Virus record (IMG/VR): IMGVR_UViG_3300030333_001323
Span: 1 to 43,702 of that record
DNA: 43,702 nt
Strand: one strand, 5' to 3'
Origin: a virus
In this document: in pieces, positions 6,643-32,982 of the stretch
Position numbering within the stretch: the stretch's first letter is position 1
How the letters are laid out: each line of letters begins with the position of its first letter
Position numbers and translations under genes: made by a program
Notes under the pieces: model-generated
What the model was told of the DNA's origin: nothing
Databases searched by the model: none
The model's input: only the letters and a program-made list of their open reading frames with translations

Positions 6643-6762
6643 CTATTTAGTATCTTTGACTTGCCTATACCAAGGCCAATCTTCTTTGTTCGATTTCTTT
6701 TTCTTAGCCACTTTGCATTCACCCTTACAAGTGTCCTCAAAGCAGTCTTTATTCTTACACAT
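6643..6762 (-). CDS. 39-aa Cys-rich small protein
   Basis: A short reading frame that exactly fills the gap between portal and the next gene. Its ATG overlaps the portal stop as TAATG, and its TAG is 2 nt before the next ATG. The peptide begins MCKNKDCFEDTCKGEC: four Cys at residues 2, 7, 12 and 16, then a run of Lys and a Trp/Tyr-containing end (EDWPWYRQVKD). The Cys spacing could hold a metal ion or disulfides. The tight fit, the coupled start and the non-random Cys pattern argue for a real gene. Function is unknown, possibly a minor head component. Confidence 0.6.
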   Translation of the reverse strand: MCKNKDCFEDTCKGECKVAKKKKSNKEDWPWYRQVKDTK

Positions 6763-8348
6763 TATTCCATACCTTGGGCAGCAGCCTGAGCCATTGCCTG
6801 TAGTTTTTCAGGGTCTTCCTGTGCCATCTTGCCTGCAGCGTTAGCTACATTAGGAGCCACTTGTTGAGCCATCATCTGAGCTTGAGCTTGCTGCTCTTCC
6901 TCTGCGATCTGCTCTTCATCTTTGATTAAACCTTCTGTATCAATACCGAGAGAAGTAGCTCGACGCTTGAGGTAGTCCCCTAAGTCTACATACTTCTTGA
7001 ATTCATCACCGAGTAACTGGGCTGCTCCCTGAATAAACATATCTAGTTTGTTCAAGTCGTGGCCTCGACCTAGTGCTTCCAACCCTGTGACAATCGTAGG
7101 CTTAACGATCTTTTTGGGAAGGGAGGGGAGGCGTCCTCCTTTTTCCATGCGAGCCATGAGTCTGTTGACAAGTGGCATCTGAAACTCTTGGGCGAGGATG
7201 GAGTAGACACCTCCCAAAACATCTTCTAACTCCTGAGCCATGAACCGGATTTCCTCAGCGGTAACCCGTTCTCCTTTACGTTGAATCGCAGTATTCATTA
7301 AGAACGCAAAGCCAAGGCGTTCCTTAATTTGATTCATGGTTTCTTGAGCGACTCGGAAGTCTGCGTGTTTCTCCATTTGGAGTACCGTGACGTCCTGTGC
7401 ATTACCCTGCACAATAGCACCGTTAGGAGATTCAGCCAGAGTGCGTGGGCGTGTGGTTCCATTGGGACTAACTAAGAATAAAACTTTAGCTGCAGCGGCT
7501 GAGCCTTCAACAATCGCCTGAGTTAAACCCTCAAGAGACTGAAGGTCTCCAATGTATTCCTCGATGAAGCTACGACCGTAGTCATCGTTTTCGATACGAG
7601 TATATCTTAAAGGTATCCAAGGGTTTTTGTCAAGAGGATACTCACCACGGGCCTCCTCGATCTCAATGTCGGCAACCTCCTGCTTAGCTATCCATTTCCC
7701 CTTGTCCCTATAAATTCCTGTGTAAACATCGACTTCTTTCTGACCGTGAGGGTGAGGTTGGTTCTCGTTTTCAGCCTCTACCCTAGCCCTGACAGTCTCG
7801 GGTAAGACATCAGGATCAATAGATTCTTTTACGATAATAGACTGAACATTCCCCATTGGATCACGCTTGCAGACAAAGCGATCAAGGTTAAACACCCTGA
7901 TTCCTCCCTTGTCTGGCACGTACAGAAGGACATTGCCTGCTACAATGAGTTGTTTAAGGGCCTCAAAGACTCCTACCCTTACAGCACTCGTCTCGACTTC
8001 AGCCTGAACCGCCCTTTCTATTTCAGCCAAAGCTTTCTCAAGCTCAGTCTTTAGTTCAGGATCAGCCTGACCCTCCGAAGCTTTCTCATACTCATACTTA
8101 TCTATGACTAATCTAAAGAAAGGAGAGTTGGGAGGAAGTAAGGCGAGGAGTAACTTTGAGGCTAAATTGTTGACGCCTCTAGCACCGACACCTTGGAACG
8201 GCGTAGGGTATGTAGTGTTAGAGGTAGGATTATGGGGAGGAACTAGATAGGGAATGGTTAGCTCAGCCGAGTCTCTAGCTCTCCGAAGAAAGGGATCACG
8301 ATCTCCTTCACAGGCATTGTAGTATGCCTTTAGTGTTTTCTTTTCCAT
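6762..8348 (-). CDS. Portal (head-tail connector, T7 gp8-like)
   Basis: Dodecameric ring at one capsid vertex through which DNA is packaged and ejected. At 528 aa it is nearly the same length as T7 gp8 (536 aa). The N-terminal ARDSAELTIPYL and the following PTPFQGVGARGVNNLASKLLLALLPPNSPFFRL are hallmark T7 portal segments. The central ERLGFAFLMNTAIQRKGERVTAEEIRFMAQELEDVLGGVYS is the conserved helical stem region. The C-terminus is Gln/Ala-rich. The start overlaps the upstream stop as TAATG. Confidence 0.97.
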   Translation of the reverse strand: MEKKTLKAYYNACEGDRDPFLRRARDSAELTIPYLVPPHNPTSNTTYPTPFQGVGARGVNNLASKLLLALLPPNSPFFRLVIDKYEYEKASEGQADPELKTELEKALAEIERAVQAEVETSAVRVGVFEALKQLIVAGNVLLYVPDKGGIRVFNLDRFVCKRDPMGNVQSIIVKESIDPDVLPETVRARVEAENENQPHPHGQKEVDVYTGIYRDKGKWIAKQEVADIEIEEARGEYPLDKNPWIPLRYTRIENDDYGRSFIEEYIGDLQSLEGLTQAIVEGSAAAAKVLFLVSPNGTTRPRTLAESPNGAIVQGNAQDVTVLQMEKHADFRVAQETMNQIKERLGFAFLMNTAIQRKGERVTAEEIRFMAQELEDVLGGVYSILAQEFQMPLVNRLMARMEKGGRLPSLPKKIVKPTIVTGLEALGRGHDLNKLDMFIQGAAQLLGDEFKKYVDLGDYLKRRATSLGIDTEGLIKDEEQIAEEEQQAQAQMMAQQVAPNVANAAGKMAQEDPEKLQAMAQAAAQGME

Positions 8349-21876: not shown

Positions 21877-21937
21877 CCACGACCCACCCCGAGGGGCGGC
21901 CGCACGGCAGCCCCGGGCCGCCCCTCGGGGCGCGTGG
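21877..21937. repeat. G+C-rich perfect inverted repeat
   Basis: Perfect 15-bp arms (21887-21901 and 21916-21930) around a 14-nt spacer, with outer CCACG/CGTGG arms (21877-21881 and 21933-21937). The block is far richer in G+C than its surroundings and contains a GCGGCCGC site at 21896-21903. No T run follows on either strand. It lies about 120 nt upstream of the GP88 gene, in the early control region. Confidence 0.8.
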
Positions 21938-22000
21938 TTAGGTTGGTTACGAGTGACTGACACAGGACTCGATCAGATATCCTAATGTAATCTGTAGGCA

Positions 22001-22123: not shown

Positions 22124-22154
22124 AGGGTCACATCCTCCTTCATTTGTAATCGAC

Positions 22155-22183
22155 AAAAAAAGAGAGGGGCCGAAGCCCCCCTC
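22155..22183 (-). terminator. Rho-independent terminator with UUCG tetraloop
   Basis: On the minus strand the stem GGGGC/GCCCC closes a TTCG loop and is extended by three more pairs past one mismatch, followed by TCTCTTTTTTT. It begins 8 nt after the stop of the 175-aa gene and separates that gene from the GP88 operon. Confidence 0.9.
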
Positions 22184-22191
22184 CATGATGA

Positions 22192-22719
22192 TTATTCTTC
22201 GTTTTTCGCGAGTTCCTCGCGTAGCTCCTCGCTGTTTGGCTGACCGTCTATGGTTGTGCGGTCTTCGACGCCTACCGTCTTGGTGGGATCGTACGGCTCA
22301 TGGGTCTTGGGCTCACGCCGGGGCTGATCGGTGCGGGCCTCTTGGGGTTCGACCTGAGCTTCCTCGGTTGCCCCCTTCGATCCCGTCTTGCGGAATCGTG
22401 CTTCGACATCCATAGGCTTGGTGCGGAGTGATAGTAGCTCATACTTACCTCGTGTCTGCTTCTCTATGTTGACCCAATGGAGTGAGTTGGTGTGACAAGC
22501 CGGACACTTGGAATAGAGTTGGCCTGTGTACTCAGAGTGACTGAAGGTCTCTCCATCAGCACCTTTCCTGCGCTTCGATGGGGACTGAAACCACGCATCA
22601 CCCTGACCGGGACGCTTGGCATACTCAGGATTTGCACCCTCATTCAACTGCTGGGTGAAGTAGTTGTGACGATTAACAAGCGGTTGATCCGCTTCCGATA
22701 TATTTATTAGTTTTTCCAT
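22192..22719 (-). CDS. Hypothetical protein with a CxxC motif
   Basis: A 175-aa protein. Residues 1-65 are polar. Residues 72-81 read CPACHTNSLH, a Cys-x2-Cys with nearby His residues that could bind zinc. The last 60 residues are highly charged and Pro/Glu/Arg-rich, probably disordered. No family is recognised. The ATG at 22719 has no Shine-Dalgarno and follows directly a large hairpin whose arm contains the anti-Shine-Dalgarno-like CTCCT. A UUCG terminator follows the stop, so this is a single-gene unit between the hairpin island and the early operon. It could be the first early gene or the last late gene. Confidence 0.7.
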   Translation of the reverse strand: MEKLINISEADQPLVNRHNYFTQQLNEGANPEYAKRPGQGDAWFQSPSKRRKGADGETFSHSEYTGQLYSKCPACHTNSLHWVNIEKQTRGKYELLSLRTKPMDVEARFRKTGSKGATEEAQVEPQEARTDQPRREPKTHEPYDPTKTVGVEDRTTIDGQPNSEELREELAKNEE

Positions 22720-23504
22720 TTTATAAGGAGGACTTGGTGAACGCCCTCATAGCTATGCGAAAGGGGCTTTACCAAGTCCTCCTGTCAGTTATTGGAAAAA
22801 CTGATAGTAGGAAGCGGCTCGATCAACCCCAGTTAATCGTGCAGATACTCATCCAGCGGTTAAGCTGAGGGTGAGAATGAGTATGACAAGTGGCATGGTC
22901 AGTTCGAGGCGTTCAGTCCCCTCGTGAGTGCGGAAAGTGCGATCTGAAGAGACCTTCAGATGCTCTGATGTCACGTTGGCCAACCTCCAAGTGGCTGGCT
23001 GGCACGAACCAACGCCTCCACTTGGTGTCATCATGAGAAGGATGATAGTAAGTTGATGCTGGTATCGCTGCAGCAAGCCGCTCGTGAGGTCGTAAGCACG
23101 ATTCCTCTGGGATCGAAGGGGGCCGAGGTAGCTTAGGCGACAACGAGTTGGCGTCCGGTCAGCCCCGGGAGCCCGAGAGCAATGAGTGTCGTATGTCTAC
23201 CATTCGGTAGGCGTAGACCGCATGACCTGATGTTGCCAACAGCAGGGCTGCGCGATGCTCGCGGGACACCGGAGATGATCATGGAGGTGGCTTGGCCCCC
23301 TGTTGTGTCGAGTACCTTCATGGTTCATTTGTGGCATCTCACAGATGCAAACAAAAACGAATACAATTGATTTCAACTGAATATCAGTTGTAGTCGTGAG
23401 GAACCGTGATGGTACGCGCCACACGGGGGGACTCCTCGTTGACTTAAAACGAGGTATGCGCTCACATTTTGTAATCTAAAACAATCACATAGGAGCCCGG
23501 GGAA
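22720..23504. other. Hairpin-dense gene-poor island after the large terminase gene
   Basis: About 785 bp without a convincing gene, more G+C-rich than its surroundings. Perfect short stem-loops are: 22726-22738/22771-22783 (13 bp), 22785-22790/22799-22804, 22942-22949/22954-22961 (8 bp, 4-nt loop), 22987-22994/23018-23025 (8 bp), 23197-23201/23206-23210, 23251-23255/23259-23263 (3-nt loop), 23334-23339/23343-23348 (3-nt loop), 23374-23380/23384-23390 (7 bp, 3-nt loop), 23404-23412/23419-23426 (8 bp, one bulge) and 23434-23440/23448-23454 (7 bp). Two ACTATCA(T) motifs are included (22801, 23042). By position this should hold the genome ends, early promoters or a structured RNA. Confidence 0.6.
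22726..22783. repeat. 13-bp inverted repeat before the 175-aa gene
   Basis: Perfect arms AGGAGGACTTGGT (22726-22738) and its complement (22771-22783). The 32-nt loop holds a further GCCC/GGGC pairing and the palindrome CATAGCTATG. On the minus strand it ends 6 nt before the ATG at 22719 and is not followed by T residues, so control of translation or an operator is more likely than termination. Confidence 0.7.
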
Positions 23505-25223
23505 CTAGCGGGACATCCATGTGGTGGGAACTTCCTTAGTTCCCCAGAGGCGATTGTAGGAGTCCAAATGGGCCTCTAGAGCCTTCGTGACTTGCTCATC
23601 CTTGTACTCAGCTACAGCTTTATCCGTATGTTGCTCCATTCGTTCTACCCAGTAGGCGACAGCCATTGCTAGGGCATCCAAGCGGTCATCATGACGTAGA
23701 CTACCTTTGTCAAAAGTAAGTCTTGACATCTGGTAGAACAGTTGGTATAATGTTGAATCCCCCGTGAGGTTCCTAAGAGCATCCTTATGTTCAACACTAT
23801 GATATCTATTGACTCCACTAAAGTCTCCCTCCACCACACTCTTACTCACCACTAACTTATGGGTATTCATTAGAGGTTCTAGAGTATCTATGATGCGTCT
23901 CTCTTTCTGGATGGAGTGTCTAACCTCCTCTATGGTGCAGGGATACCCTACTTCTTCAGATAAGACGGGTTTGAGGAGGGAAGAGAACATTCCATCTCCA
24001 AAGTTAGACTCAACAATGATGTAGTTTACCTTGTTTTCCCTAGCTATTCTGGCGAGAGCCTTGAGTGTTGCTGGGGTATATCCCCCTAGAAACCCTCCAG
24101 ATTCAGTCACAAAGAGTTGAGAGTTGAGGATTTTGACTACTGCATAGGCTGTTTCGTCTTTACCCATGCCTGCAGGGTCTATGGACATCACCGATCCAGC
24201 GTAGGGCTGGTGATCTGGGGTCACTTCCATAGGTCGATAGAAGCGATCTCCAGCTAAACCCGGGCATGGACAGTCTTTCCACTCTAATTCTGGAGATGAG
24301 GCCCATGTCAGCTTGGAAGCAGCCTTCTCGTTATCCAAAGGATGCACGATGAGGTCAGCACAGCGAAGAGGGTATCTCCCCATGTCTGACAGGGAGGTAT
24401 CCAGCATGTACTGGAGAGCAAACCCTGATTTCCCGTAGCTGGCCTCGCGTTCTCGCAAGTCTACATCATCGAACCTCTGGGCGTCTACGGGTTCTCCTTC
24501 CTCCTTATCCCCACATAAATCTAAGACATAAGGGGCTAAACGGTCTCCGTAAGAGGTTTTTGTCTTCTCAGTAGGTATTCTGGCAGGCCAAATCCTGATC
24601 TCATAGCCACGCTCAGGCAGGACGTTGTAGATCGACATCTCCGTCTGAGGGGTTCCGAGGTAGACAATACGTCCATCTGGCTTCAAAACAGCGTCAAACT
24701 CCTTGATTGTCTCCGTAATCTTGTCCCTCATCATCTGAGTGAGAGAGTTGTTGAGAGACTCAACGTCATCAGCCACTATGAGGTCAGCACGGCTTCCTGT
24801 TAGCTGGCCCGTTATCCCTACACTCTTTACAGAAGGAGCATGAGCCGCTGGGGCAGGCCCTACATCAAAGCTTATCTTAGAGCTTCTCTGGTCTTCCCGG
24901 GGAGCGAGGTGCATCAGGATGGGCATCTCGTTGATCAACCTGAGCGTAAACGTCGAGAAGTCATCTGACCGTGTTTTCGATGCGGAGACCACCAGAATGT
25001 TCAGAGCAGGGTTCAGCAACAACTGGTGGATCACGTAAGCTGACGTAATCCAGCTTTTGCCTACCCCTCGAAACGCCTGAATACAACAGCGTTTAGGCCC
25101 ATGCTGAACATATTCAGCTATGTCGTATTGAGTGGGAGTTGGATCAGGGAGACCTAGATGCTTCCAAGTGAGGTAGAGGAAGTTTCTAAAGTCGTGTAGC
25201 TCTTCTGGTATCTGAGTGGCCAT
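23505..25223 (-). CDS. Terminase large subunit (T7 gp19-like)
   Basis: ATP-driven DNA packaging motor with a nuclease that cuts concatemers. It is 572 aa (T7: 586). Walker A is FRGVGKS (51-57), Walker B is DLIVADDVE (147-155), and a TQMMRDKITETIKEF helix and YLGTPQTEMSIYNVL (coupling motif) follow. The RNase H-like nuclease domain starts with MSIDPAGMGKDETAYAVV and ends near HDDRLDALAMAVAYW with its conserved acids. It is the last late gene, followed by the hairpin island. T7-like enzymes cut at specific sites to make terminal repeats, so the genome ends should be nearby. Confidence 0.97.
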   Translation of the reverse strand: MATQIPEELHDFRNFLYLTWKHLGLPDPTPTQYDIAEYVQHGPKRCCIQAFRGVGKSWITSAYVIHQLLLNPALNILVVSASKTRSDDFSTFTLRLINEMPILMHLAPREDQRSSKISFDVGPAPAAHAPSVKSVGITGQLTGSRADLIVADDVESLNNSLTQMMRDKITETIKEFDAVLKPDGRIVYLGTPQTEMSIYNVLPERGYEIRIWPARIPTEKTKTSYGDRLAPYVLDLCGDKEEGEPVDAQRFDDVDLREREASYGKSGFALQYMLDTSLSDMGRYPLRCADLIVHPLDNEKAASKLTWASSPELEWKDCPCPGLAGDRFYRPMEVTPDHQPYAGSVMSIDPAGMGKDETAYAVVKILNSQLFVTESGGFLGGYTPATLKALARIARENKVNYIIVESNFGDGMFSSLLKPVLSEEVGYPCTIEEVRHSIQKERRIIDTLEPLMNTHKLVVSKSVVEGDFSGVNRYHSVEHKDALRNLTGDSTLYQLFYQMSRLTFDKGSLRHDDRLDALAMAVAYWVERMEQHTDKAVAEYKDEQVTKALEAHLDSYNRLWGTKEVPTTWMSR

Positions 25224-29008: not shown

Positions 29009-31275
29009 TATGAAGGTAGAGCAGTTAACGCACTAACATTTTGAATGTGGTTCCATTGAATTGTGTCCCATGAAAAAGTACCTCCGCTTGCGTAACGAAG
29101 GTATTCATTTGAAGTCCCGCCAGTTGTAGTCACGCAGCCTACTGACATTGTACCATTCATTAGTTTATAACCGATATCTTGGCTAATGCCTTTGTTAGTC
29201 ACGCCACTTGCACCCCCTCCAAATAAAGCTTCCGCGCTGGCTAAGTTAGGCATTGAACTGCCATACGCGCCAATCAAAGTGTCTACTCCACCTGTAGTGA
29301 CGAAACCAGCCCCGTTTGTTAACTGATTGGTGTTAGTGGGAATTGTGGTGCTGTTAAAAGCGTTAGACCCAAAGATTTCAGAAGACAACTTCCTCTTCTG
29401 AGTGCCGCTATCTAGAACAATGAATTCGTCAGAGCCGTTAGTCCAACTCTGTGTCATGTCAGGTAAAGCGGATAAATTTAATAAGATCGTTCCTGACTCA
29501 ATAATTGTTCCCGAAAGCCCCGTCCCTGTGGCTACAGAAGTTACAGTCCCTGAGTTAGCCGTAGCTCCCGTTGCAATTCCGTCTAACTTAGTCTTTAGAG
29601 TAGAGGTAAAGTTCTTCTGAGTTAAGCCGCCATCACCTACGGAATATGTTGTGTTCGTCCACGGGACGTTAACGTACATCTTCTCTGAACTTACTTCTAC
29701 AGGGTAGTTCTTGCCTGACTCTGTGTATCCAATCTTGAAACCACCTCGTACGCTAGAGGAACCAGCAGGGAGACTGTAGTTATTAGCTCCCGTTGCGATC
29801 CCATCCAGCTTACTTTTGAGAGTTGTAGTAAAATTCTTTTGAGTAAGACCTCCGTCTCCTACTGAATAAGTAGTGTTCGTCCACGGTACATTAACGTACA
29901 TTTGTTCGGAGCTAACTTCGACAGGATAATTTTTGCCAGACTCCGTATAGCCAATCTTAAAGCCCCCTCGGACAGAACTAGAACCTGCAGGGAGTGAGTA
30001 GTTGTTAGCAGATGTAGCGATACCATTGAGCTTAGTCCTTAATGCGTCTGTGAAGTTTGCTTGGGTCAGTCCATGATCTCCTTCAGAATACGTAGTGTCT
30101 GTCCAAGGGACATTAACATACATCTTCTCTGAGCTTACCTCTACTGGGTAATTCTTACCTGATTCACTATAACCAATCTTAAAACCACCCCGTACGCTAG
30201 AGGAGCCTGCAGGAAGGCTATAGTTATTTGCGCCGTCAGCTACGTTTAGGAAAGACCTTACTGAACCCGCATCAGCATGGCGCATGTACCCATCATCACC
30301 AGATTCTGCGACCAACTTTGTGATGATGTTGGTGGTAATCGTGTTTGGTGAGGTATTGAAGTAGTTCGCAAAGATGTATCCTGAAGAGTGTCTCTGTACC
30401 ACCGTGCTATTGGAAGCACTTACGCTAACGGTGTAAGGGAAGGAGTAGTTATTGGCTCCCGCTGCGATGCCGTCCAGCTTACTTTTTAGAGTGGTCGTGA
30501 AGTTCTTTTGAGTGAGACCACCATCCCCTACTGCAATAGCCTCTGTATAATACGGGGCTGCAGTATTAGTGGCTCCCGAAGCGATTCCATCTAGCTTATT
30601 TTTGAGGGTTGTCGTAAAGTTCTTTTGAGTCAGCCCTCCATCCTGAACAGCGTATGTAGTGTTTTGCCACGGTACGTTGACGTAAAGCTTCTCGCTAGTT
30701 CCGTGAGCTTCTACAGGATAAAACTGGCCTGACTCTGTGTACCCAAGCTTAACTCCTCCTCTTGTTCCATCTCCAGCAGCAGGAAGTGAGTAGTTATTAG
30801 CATTAGCTGCAATGCCATCTAGCTTACTTTTGAGAGTTGTAGTAAAATTCTTTTGTGTAAGCCCACCGTCCCCTACTGAGTAAGTGGTATTCGTCCAAGG
30901 GACGTTCACATACATCTTCTCACTAGAGACTTCTACCGGATAATTCTTACCCGACTCTGTGTATCCAATCTTAAAGCCGCCCCGTACGCTAGAAGACCCT
31001 GCGGGGAGACTGTAGTTGTTAGCCGAGGTTGCAATCCCGTCTAACTTAGTCTTTAGAGTCGAGGTGAAGTTCTTCTGAGTAAATCCTCCATCCCCCACGC
31101 TATGACTATGCCCCGATAAGGCATAAGCTGCGTGATTAAAAACGAGGGTGTTACCAGAGCCGTTCCCTACCCATATCTTTTGATTATAGGTATTAACAGC
31201 GACTTCGCCACCGCTTAATGTCCCGGGAACTGCACCGCTACTGTTACTGTAGTTGAGTGTTACTGTATTTGCCAT
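29008..31275 (-). CDS. Repetitive tail fibre protein
   Basis: A 755-aa fibre protein. The N-terminus (GGEVAVNTYNQKIWVGNGSG) is a common marine-phage fibre head. Seven copies of a DGGLTQKNFT-like unit follow, most continued by KLDGIA, ANNYSLPAGSSSVRGG, GYTESGKNYPVEV and MYVNVPWTNTTY, giving a period of about 72 residues. This suggests a long trimeric beta shaft built from near-identical segments. The C-terminal 170 residues are unique, probably the tip, with an SGTILLNLSALPDMTQSW-like segment and a GASG stretch. Its place after the gp17-like gene fits a side-fibre component. Confidence 0.82.
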   Translation of the reverse strand: MANTVTLNYSNSSGAVPGTLSGGEVAVNTYNQKIWVGNGSGNTLVFNHAAYALSGHSHSVGDGGFTQKNFTSTLKTKLDGIATSANNYSLPAGSSSVRGGFKIGYTESGKNYPVEVSSEKMYVNVPWTNTTYSVGDGGLTQKNFTTTLKSKLDGIAANANNYSLPAAGDGTRGGVKLGYTESGQFYPVEAHGTSEKLYVNVPWQNTTYAVQDGGLTQKNFTTTLKNKLDGIASGATNTAAPYYTEAIAVGDGGLTQKNFTTTLKSKLDGIAAGANNYSFPYTVSVSASNSTVVQRHSSGYIFANYFNTSPNTITTNIITKLVAESGDDGYMRHADAGSVRSFLNVADGANNYSLPAGSSSVRGGFKIGYSESGKNYPVEVSSEKMYVNVPWTDTTYSEGDHGLTQANFTDALRTKLNGIATSANNYSLPAGSSSVRGGFKIGYTESGKNYPVEVSSEQMYVNVPWTNTTYSVGDGGLTQKNFTTTLKSKLDGIATGANNYSLPAGSSSVRGGFKIGYTESGKNYPVEVSSEKMYVNVPWTNTTYSVGDGGLTQKNFTSTLKTKLDGIATGATANSGTVTSVATGTGLSGTIIESGTILLNLSALPDMTQSWTNGSDEFIVLDSGTQKRKLSSEIFGSNAFNSTTIPTNTNQLTNGAGFVTTGGVDTLIGAYGSSMPNLASAEALFGGGASGVTNKGISQDIGYKLMNGTMSVGCVTTTGGTSNEYLRYASGGTFSWDTIQWNHIQNVSALTALPS
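29577..31110 (-). repeat. Intragenic fibre repeats, protein-conserved, DNA-diverged
   Basis: About 216-bp units repeat through the fibre gene, the copies encoding nearly the same peptides. Their DNA differs at many third codon positions, for example in the GYTESGKNYPVEV segments at about 29680, 29920, 30140 and 30930. The same unit appears once more in the upstream fibre gene at about 31630-31740. Confidence 0.8.
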
Positions 31276-31284
31276 TGCTCATGA

Positions 31285-32982
31285 TCATGAACCAGACCAA
31301 CTAATTTGACCACCGTTGATGGTAGAAGAAGTAGTTAAGACTGTGTTATCAATGGCGACAGCATTGGCAGTAACAGAAATACCCGTACCTTGTCCAACGT
31401 GGAGAGTAGCCTCACCAGAGGAGAAGCTGCCTGTTAAACCGTTCCCTCCGTATACGCCTGTGATATCGCCAGTTGGAAAAGCATCTACTACGAGATCAAT
31501 CGTACCATCGGTATCCTGATAAGTTGCAGAGATACGAGTCTCGGTATTGCTGGTGAACATAGCACCAACAATGTCTTGAACTTGCTCAGTAGTTAAAGAG
31601 TTTGAGTCCGTCCAAGGAACATTGACGTACATCTTTTCGCTATCGACTTCTACGGGGTAGTTTTTCCCGTTCTCCGTATAACCGATTTTGAAACCACCTC
31701 GTACGCTAGAAGAGCCTGCAGGAAGTGAGTAATTATTCGCACCATCAGCAACATTCAGCAGAGTGCGAACATTAGATGGAGATAATTCCTGATGGTTGCC
31801 AGAACCGGGATCGGTACGACCTACTAATGTACTTGTGGCTACTCCTGAAAGAGTTGAGGTAGAAGTAGCGGTTGCAGCGTTGCCCGTACAAGACCCAGAA
31901 GAACCAGTTACGTTACCTATAAACGAAGCAGCACGAATGTTGAGGTTCGTGTTCCACTCGGTTCCGCTGTTATCAATGAGGAAGTTGCGATCAGCAGCGT
32001 TGTCAGTAGGATCAACGTAGATACCAGCCCCATCAGAATTAGCAATGGAGTCTACTCCCTTACCTAACTGAATTGCTTTATCTGTAATTTCAAGATTTGT
32101 AGTAGCTACAGATGTAGTTGAGCCTTCAACTGTTAAGCTTCCCGGGATTTTAATAGTAGTACCTGACGCACCTAGTGTCAGCGTGTTACTCCCCACACCA
32201 TCAAAAATCGTGTGGTCGGCAGCCGTCATATCGATGTCAGTCAAACCCGTCAGTCCTGCGCTGGTAGCACCAAGGGCTGTGGAGGTTGCACCGATTGTGA
32301 CTGAACTGTTGGCTAACTTACCGTTGGCAATGCTGCCAGCAAGCTGAGCGTTTGTGATTGTTCCGGTAAGGCTAGAGGTAGGATAACCAGTAGCATCTTG
32401 AAGATTGAACGCTGGAGTTGCGTCAGACGCGCCAAGAGATAGAGTGACTCCTCCAAAGCTAACAGATGAATTCGCTAGTTTGCTGTTGGCGATACTCCCT
32501 GCAAGCTGAGCATTGGTAATTGTGCCGGTAAGGCTGGAGGTAGGATAGCCCGTAGCATCTTGGAGATCGAATGCCGGGGTAGCATCAGACCCTCCTAAAG
32601 ACAGAGAGACTCCTCCAAAGCTTACTGAAGAGTTAGCCAGCTTGTTGTTTGCAATGCTTCCAGCTAATTGGGCATTACTGACGCCCAGAGCTTTAATGGT
32701 AAGGGTATTACCCGTTCCATTCGCATAATCCATAGCAGAAAGCGCAAAGTCATTACTGCTAAAGGATGCTGCGCCGGGGACTGTTGAGGTTGCTATGCGT
32801 CCTCGGACTTCAAAAGGTTCTGGATCACCATCGCCTGTGCTGGGGTCTGAGGTAGCGCGGCCTATGAATAGACGGTTTGACCCGTTTACCCAGCCTAGTT
32901 CTCCATACGCTAAATTACTCCCAGTAGGATAATTCGTGCTGGTATGGCTATCGGATCGTGCAACTTGTACTTTATTTGCCAT
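31285..32982 (-). CDS. Tail fibre protein with internal repeats
   Basis: A 565-aa fibre protein. The head contains GELGWVNGSNRLFIGRA, a motif common in marine phage fibres. Two to three repeats of a unit with NSSVSFGG, LSLG-SDATPAF-LQDATGYPTSSLTG and TITNAQLAGSIAN follow (period about 53 residues). A DNTADRNFLIDNSGTEWNTNLNI segment and one copy of the SSSVRGGFKIGYTENGKNYPVEV unit shared with the next gene come later. The C-terminus has TEQVQDIVGAMF and a TDGTIDLVVDAFPTG segment. The shared unit suggests exchange between the two genes. It follows the gp17-like fibre gene by 12 nt. Confidence 0.8.
   Translation of the reverse strand: MANKVQVARSDSHTSTNYPTGSNLAYGELGWVNGSNRLFIGRATSDPSTGDGDPEPFEVRGRIATSTVPGAASFSSNDFALSAMDYANGTGNTLTIKALGVSNAQLAGSIANNKLANSSVSFGGVSLSLGGSDATPAFDLQDATGYPTSSLTGTITNAQLAGSIANSKLANSSVSFGGVTLSLGASDATPAFNLQDATGYPTSSLTGTITNAQLAGSIANGKLANSSVTIGATSTALGATSAGLTGLTDIDMTAADHTIFDGVGSNTLTLGASGTTIKIPGSLTVEGSTTSVATTNLEITDKAIQLGKGVDSIANSDGAGIYVDPTDNAADRNFLIDNSGTEWNTNLNIRAASFIGNVTGSSGSCTGNAATATSTSTLSGVATSTLVGRTDPGSGNHQELSPSNVRTLLNVADGANNYSLPAGSSSVRGGFKIGYTENGKNYPVEVDSEKMYVNVPWTDSNSLTTEQVQDIVGAMFTSNTETRISATYQDTDGTIDLVVDAFPTGDITGVYGGNGLTGSFSSGEATLHVGQGTGISVTANAVAIDNTVLTTSSTINGGQISWSGS

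Follow-up and report, generated by a model that had tools for sequence, protein, structure and literature searches.

A gene that lies just past the large terminase gene terL forms, together with a diverged inverted copy of itself, an imperfect palindrome of ~1.17 kb. It is centred near position 22,754 of the window, the 43,702-nt IMG/VR record IMGVR_UViG_3300030333_001323. The palindrome, its recurrence in eight contigs around one gene family, compensatory changes between its arms and wobble pairing restricted to the plus strand can be read directly from the sequences. They point to a selected, unbranched RNA rod that would be transcribed antisense to the gene, a reading that is given about an even chance. 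We infer that the selected molecule is RNA and that it would be made during infection.

The plus-strand stretch 22,726–23,301 was detected with blastn as an inverted copy of 22,783–22,165 (70% identity over 647 columns, E = 2e-36). The stretch that it mirrors includes the neighbouring 175-aa gene and its terminator (Table 1). Folding of 22,146–23,315 as plus-strand RNA predicted an unbranched rod with 470 pairs and −687 kcal/mol. The pairing and mismatch counts of the arms given below were taken from strict alignment scoring, because loose scoring runs long even at palindrome-free loci (L057, L007). Elsewhere in the window, a very GC-rich hairpin with 23-nt arms (87% complementary) was seen in the early region at 21,879–21,938, and repeats spaced 222 nt were seen in the region of a tail-fibre-like gene at 29,558–31,743.

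Table 1. Features in and around the palindrome (positions in the window).
Feature	Position	Strand	Basis
Entire imperfect palindrome	22146–23315	+	strict self-alignment score 512 vs shuffle mean 23
5' arm of predicted rod: antisense of early gene and its terminator	22146–22753	+	blastn, strict alignment
3' arm of predicted rod: diverged mirror copy of gene, bulk of island	22756–23315	+	blastn, strict alignment
Central hairpin, 22-nt arms, 86% complementary	22726–22783	.	sequence
Intrinsic-terminator-like hairpin and T run; gene end, rod base	22161–22184	-	sequence
Early gene, 175 aa, zinc-ribbon-like CPxC motif, purifying selection	22192–22719	-	
ACTATCA within gene	22429–22435	-	
ACTATCA just upstream of central hairpin and gene	22802–22808	-	
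ACTATCA in mirror arm	23043–23049	-	
Conserved module between terL and rod, candidate concatemer junction	23316–23504	-	alignment, spacing
ATCTGT, T7 class II pause/termination-like	23341–23346	-	motif in PMC11617373
C tract of junction module	23425–23430	-	sequence, spacing
7-bp hairpin of junction module	23434–23454	.	stem count, spacing
Terminase large subunit gene terL, comparison anchor	23505–25223	-	

The same layout was found in seven further phage contigs, which brings the rod-bearing contigs to eight including the window. In each of them a member of the gene family lies just past terL and wholly inside a palindrome of 730–1170 nt. The phages are T7-like and known here from metagenome contigs alone. 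One relative, L001 (terminase 89% identical, layout as in the window), was obtained in a terminase search, and further ones came from profile scans with terminase alignments. Palindrome scores were between 166 and 512 in the window, L001, L016, L017 and L019, compared to shuffle means of ~23 (maximum 33). L098, L100 and L101 were added only once the pattern was already defined. They were matched by the gene profile with E-values of 2.7e-22, 1.8e-37 and 4.8e-14, respectively, and all three contained the palindrome (scores 262, 314 and 364). Palindrome length tracks gene length: across the eight full palindromes, whose genes encode 103–186 aa, the end of the palindrome coincides with that of the gene or falls shortly beyond it. 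Watson–Crick pairs account for ~79–85% of the aligned pairs in all eight. The eight contigs do not represent eight independent lineages, as L017, L100 and L101 have most of their flanks in common.

In three other relatives that contain the gene (L115, L107 and L108), the palindrome is short or weak. It was absent in those terminase relatives with available downstream DNA where no copy of the gene was found (L018, L021, L022, L111, L114 and L099). No gene-length palindrome was detected in pelagiphages and other phages at ~57% terminase identity, and a scan of genome contigs (best terminase 63%) gave no comparable one. Palindromes of ~135 nt occur in a similar place in the more distant relatives L047 (738–875 nt after terL) and L044 (738–871 nt), where the rod gene was not detected. 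Near a distant terminase relative in L250, a Mucispirillum MAG contig, overlapping inverted repeats were clustered at 6700–7139. In many relatives the sequence ends 6–532 nt past the terL stop codon (L015, L095–L097, L103–L105, L109, L112 and L113), and both L096 and L097 break off at 203 nt past terL, near the position that the rod base has in the window. Assemblies may be broken by the junction or by the variable rod.

The enclosed gene is under purifying selection, with dN 0.26 and dS 0.91 between the window and L016 and dN 0.12 and dS 0.72 between L017 and L100. A CP-containing motif that resembles a zinc ribbon is present in many members of the family. In most rod-bearing loci the stop codon is followed by a terminator-like sequence, at which the palindrome ends. 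The protein has no detectable relatives outside this group of phages: the family gave nothing above cut-off against Pfam and PHROGs, a scan with the family profile returned L016 and L001 again and nothing else, single-protein scans with the 326-aa and 175-aa gene products found no relatives, and the gene was not found in the contigs of four relatives in which it was looked for. The AlphaFold model was poor (mean pLDDT 68.5, pTM 0.46) and matched no fold in PDB or BFVD with E < 0.001.

The strand under selection is indicated by the positions that are not Watson–Crick paired. Read on the plus strand, the eight palindromes contain 212 G-U compared to 37 A-C positions, while composition predicts a ratio of 1.36:1. 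This G-U excess is restricted to the strand opposite the genes; on the gene strand, the counts are 37 G-U to 212 A-C. In the three contigs added later, the ratios were 25:3, 30:2 and 31:12, the last being the modest bias of L101, and the bias was weak in L001 (14:10). In each of the eight palindromes, the predicted fold is also stronger for the plus strand than for the gene strand. A one-way C-to-T mutation or deamination was considered as the origin of the bias and rejected: changes between GC and GU (15, 24) were about as common as those between AU and GU (18, 18), and simple strand-biased deamination is insufficient because GU replaces both pairs about equally.

Other mismatches on the plus strand were G-G over C-C with 41:11, U-U over A-A with 76:32 and G-A over C-U with 107:94. 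With regard to mismatch stabilities, such a pattern (G-G above C-C, U-U above A-A, G-A similar to C-U) suits RNA more than DNA, and the mismatches can thus be considered a soft indication of RNA. The longest uninterrupted helix was shorter than random in the window (P = 0.013), L016 (0.003), L001 (<0.0005) and L019 (0.013), and no such cap appeared in L017 and L101 with the same test. The short helices may reflect evasion of double-strand-specific RNases.

Between terL and the rod lies a separate module that can be regarded as a candidate for a T7-like concatemer-junction pause site. Downstream of terL it consists of a C tract, preceded in most members by a hairpin, and of CATCTGT ~80 nt farther on, with nearly fixed spacing across the relatives. 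Of 17 loci, 14, among them the window, have ATCTGT(T) downstream of terL. In T7, ATCTGTT is the class II terminator sequence and is located in the concatemer junction (PMC11617373). The palindrome lies ~25–45 nt beyond this motif. A packaging or terminal site had been one of four ideas in the original prediction for the whole island 22,720–23,504; on account of the hairpin, C tract, CATCTGT and spacing it suits the final ~190 nt and not the rest. The likeness to T7, i.e. ATCTGT at a nearly fixed distance downstream of terL, is equally confined to the 190-nt module, and we know of no gene-length palindrome at the concatemer junction of T7.

This neighbourhood gives rise to the most serious rival explanation, which is nevertheless judged unlikely: the palindrome might belong to the genome's terminal region and act as a plus-strand single-stranded DNA hairpin while concatemers are processed or packaged. 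T7 concatemers are reported to form a hairpin end during processing, which offers a parallel, and the palindrome lies in a fitting place, between terL and the early genes and close to the junction motif. A strand-specific DNA hairpin would also yield a one-strand bias, and the preference for G-G over C-C suits DNA as well. However, a packaging hairpin need not track the length of a gene or stop at its terminator, and G-A is not favoured over C-T as would be expected from the stability of DNA mismatches. Moreover, the junction module is present in rod-free relatives too, and terminase relatives without the gene retain the motif and have no palindrome.

Joint alignments of the gene and mirror arms of two phages were used to count quartets in which each gene matches its own mirror but not that of the other phage, compared to a control pattern. 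The counts were 25:0 for the window and L016, 47:0 for L017 and L019 and 86:7 for the window and L001, and the own-match columns were scattered singly along the length and not in tracts. In a second test, the fold of one phage was mapped onto another through sequence alignment alone and double changes that keep pairing on the plus strand were compared to a permutation null. From the window to L016, 29 were found (null 13.9 ± 3.3, maximum 25), in the opposite direction 35 (null 15.4, maximum 27) and from L017 to L100, 14 (null 6.6 ± 2.3, maximum 13 of 500). Broken pairs on the plus strand were below every shuffle in these alignable pairs of phages (window/L016 and L017/L100). No excess of double changes was detected in the more diverged pairs L001/L098 and L019/L017, perhaps because such pairs no longer align. 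L017 and L101, with terL 99% identical, differ in both outer arms and have the centre and flanks in common; therefore, the arms change together. Judged from these alignments, the arms co-evolve and their pairing is kept by compensatory change.

Joint replacement of the outer arms around a common centre, as in L017 and L101, is also what copying across a hairpin would give. A functionless, self-maintaining inverted duplication, in which one arm is recopied from the other by template switching and G-T stays behind on one strand through strand-biased mutation or mismatch repair, is considered improbable, somewhat more so than the DNA hairpin. It is at odds with paired changes that are single and scattered, with GU arising from both GC and AU pairs and with helices shorter than random in four of the eight. 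In addition, the eight palindromes have a similar identity and do not range from perfect to decayed.

The gene strand carries signals of its own. ACTATCA (often TACTATCAT) occurs 11:0 on the gene strand versus the plus strand, only between 15,521 and 23,049 of the window and nowhere else. It is strand-specific in the 16 other loci as well, with none antisense across all 17. The motif resembles an early promoter or a strand-specific signal of some other kind. For the rod itself, no plus-strand promoter was recognised, as ACTATCA lies on the gene strand only and a sigma-70 scan left of the rod was unconvincing. Inside terL, a full sigma-70 consensus (TTGACA-17-TATAAT, 12/12) was seen in antisense orientation at 23,723–23,751 on the plus strand, directed away from the rod. 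ACTATCA, the terminator and the gene order, all on the gene strand, would be in agreement with a function of gene-strand RNA, in which transcription would continue from terL, so that mirror and gene pair within one transcript and the gene is hidden late in infection. This strand also folds into a long hairpin. With the wobble bias reversed and the fold weaker than that of the plus strand in all eight palindromes, this explanation is thought to be quite improbable, below both preceding ones.

The island itself is non-coding and flanked by terL and the next gene, which starts at 22,719 on the minus strand. Its open reading frames of at most 76 aa and its G+C content of 52.4%, compared to 46.5% for the whole window, bear out what had been predicted for both. 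Ten perfect or near-perfect stem-loops had been reported in its ~785 bp. The excess over chance was confirmed, with five perfect stems of at least 6 bp and loops of 3–9 nt compared to 1.2 in dinucleotide shuffles (maximum 4 of 100) and 1.4 in other 785-bp windows (maximum 6), and three of at least 7 bp where 0.25 were expected; the number ten is reached only with mismatched stems. Both strands of the block fold far better than expected by chance (z = −9.0 on plus, −6.3 on minus). The mirror arm alone, folded as plus strand, gave z-values of −0.4 to +1.2 in L016, L017, L019, L100 and L101, −1.6 in L098, −3.0 in L001 and −6.0 in the window only. Conservation among related phages, by which the original prediction was to be judged, is thus lacking for the local stems and present for the long rod.

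The hairpins are real, yet secondary to the palindrome, which is the main feature of the island. An ordinary locally structured RNA or hairpin array, although the window's stems exceed chance, has a very slim probability given that they are not conserved and that the isolated mirror arm is near zero in five relatives. Hairpin promoters of the N4 type are unsupported for the same lack of conservation. A large structured non-coding RNA came closest among the four proposals, in the modified form of a predicted single rod built with the adjacent gene. Rfam covariance models gave no match in the window at gathering score and chance-level matches only at relaxed thresholds, no tRNA or tmRNA was found there by scanning, and blastn of the island against INPHARED phages gave no match. 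A chimeric fold-back in assembly is hardly credible: inverted duplications are common artefacts of amplified metagenomes, but these arms are ~70% identical with indels and the layout recurs across different metagenome projects.

If the antisense RNA rod is correct, transcription of the plus strand across the palindrome would give an antisense RNA folded as a single long rod without branches. Its 5' arm would be the perfect complement of the early gene's mRNA and its 3' arm an imperfect copy of the gene that sheathes the 5' arm and holds it folded. The mRNA could displace the sheath because it pairs perfectly with the antisense arm, compared to about 80–85% for the sheath, and would thereby be silenced. 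The early gene might in this way be turned off at a late stage of infection or in a relative that superinfects the cell. Such control of the enclosed gene through a sheathed antisense arm is the weakest step of the proposal and considered doubtful.

Obelisks are circular RNAs of ~1 kb with rod-like secondary structure and encode Oblin-1 of ~200 aa (PMC11922315). The phage element resembles them in its predicted ~1-kb rod-like fold (730–1170 nt) and in one protein of comparable size, but it is DNA-encoded beside terL with the gene opposite the favoured rod strand, and it is not known to give a circular or replicating RNA. Obelisks are, to our knowledge, RNA agents without a DNA form, whereas the rod is encoded in DNA phage contigs. 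As to a tie with Oblin-1, the phage protein gave no match in Pfam, PHROGs, PDB or BFVD, libraries that may not include Oblin, and its structure model is the poor one mentioned above. The RNA of hepatitis delta virus is rod-like as well and its complementary strand encodes a protein located in one arm, as in the phage element; unlike it, the phage rod has no known RNA replication or ribozyme (Rfam search negative). The likeness to both agents is one of shape only. A domesticated element of this kind, copied by the phage's single-subunit RNA polymerase and bound by the protein on its complement, is highly improbable, and nothing useful was found in the literature on T7 polymerase copying palindromic RNA.

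GOLLD and ROOL are large structured RNAs, often found in phages, with branched multi-domain folds; the phage element would share size and structure, but is predicted as one rod and has no Rfam match. By position, the nearest published phage RNA is the CBASS-activating cabRNA, a structured RNA of ~400 nt or less from the terminase region with double-stranded parts (PMC10686824). It is transcribed from terS/terL themselves, whereas the rod lies outside terL and is built with the neighbouring gene. No description of a gene-length mirrored element was found in the papers searched and no match in Rfam, Pfam, PHROGs, PDB or BFVD. A precedent for a whole-gene mirror that would enable a kilobase rod on the opposite strand was thus not found among these RNA and protein families or papers.

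Other phage genomes can be screened with the strand-specific wobble test, which is simple. The RNA, if made, would be of a new kind among the antisense or structural RNAs of phages. In E. coli, expressed long hairpin RNA is reported to undergo cleavage into short fragments (PMC6627737), and an RNA rod made by these phages would be informative about the persistence of long imperfect double-stranded RNA in bacterial cells and perhaps about the sensing of phage RNA by bacterial defences.
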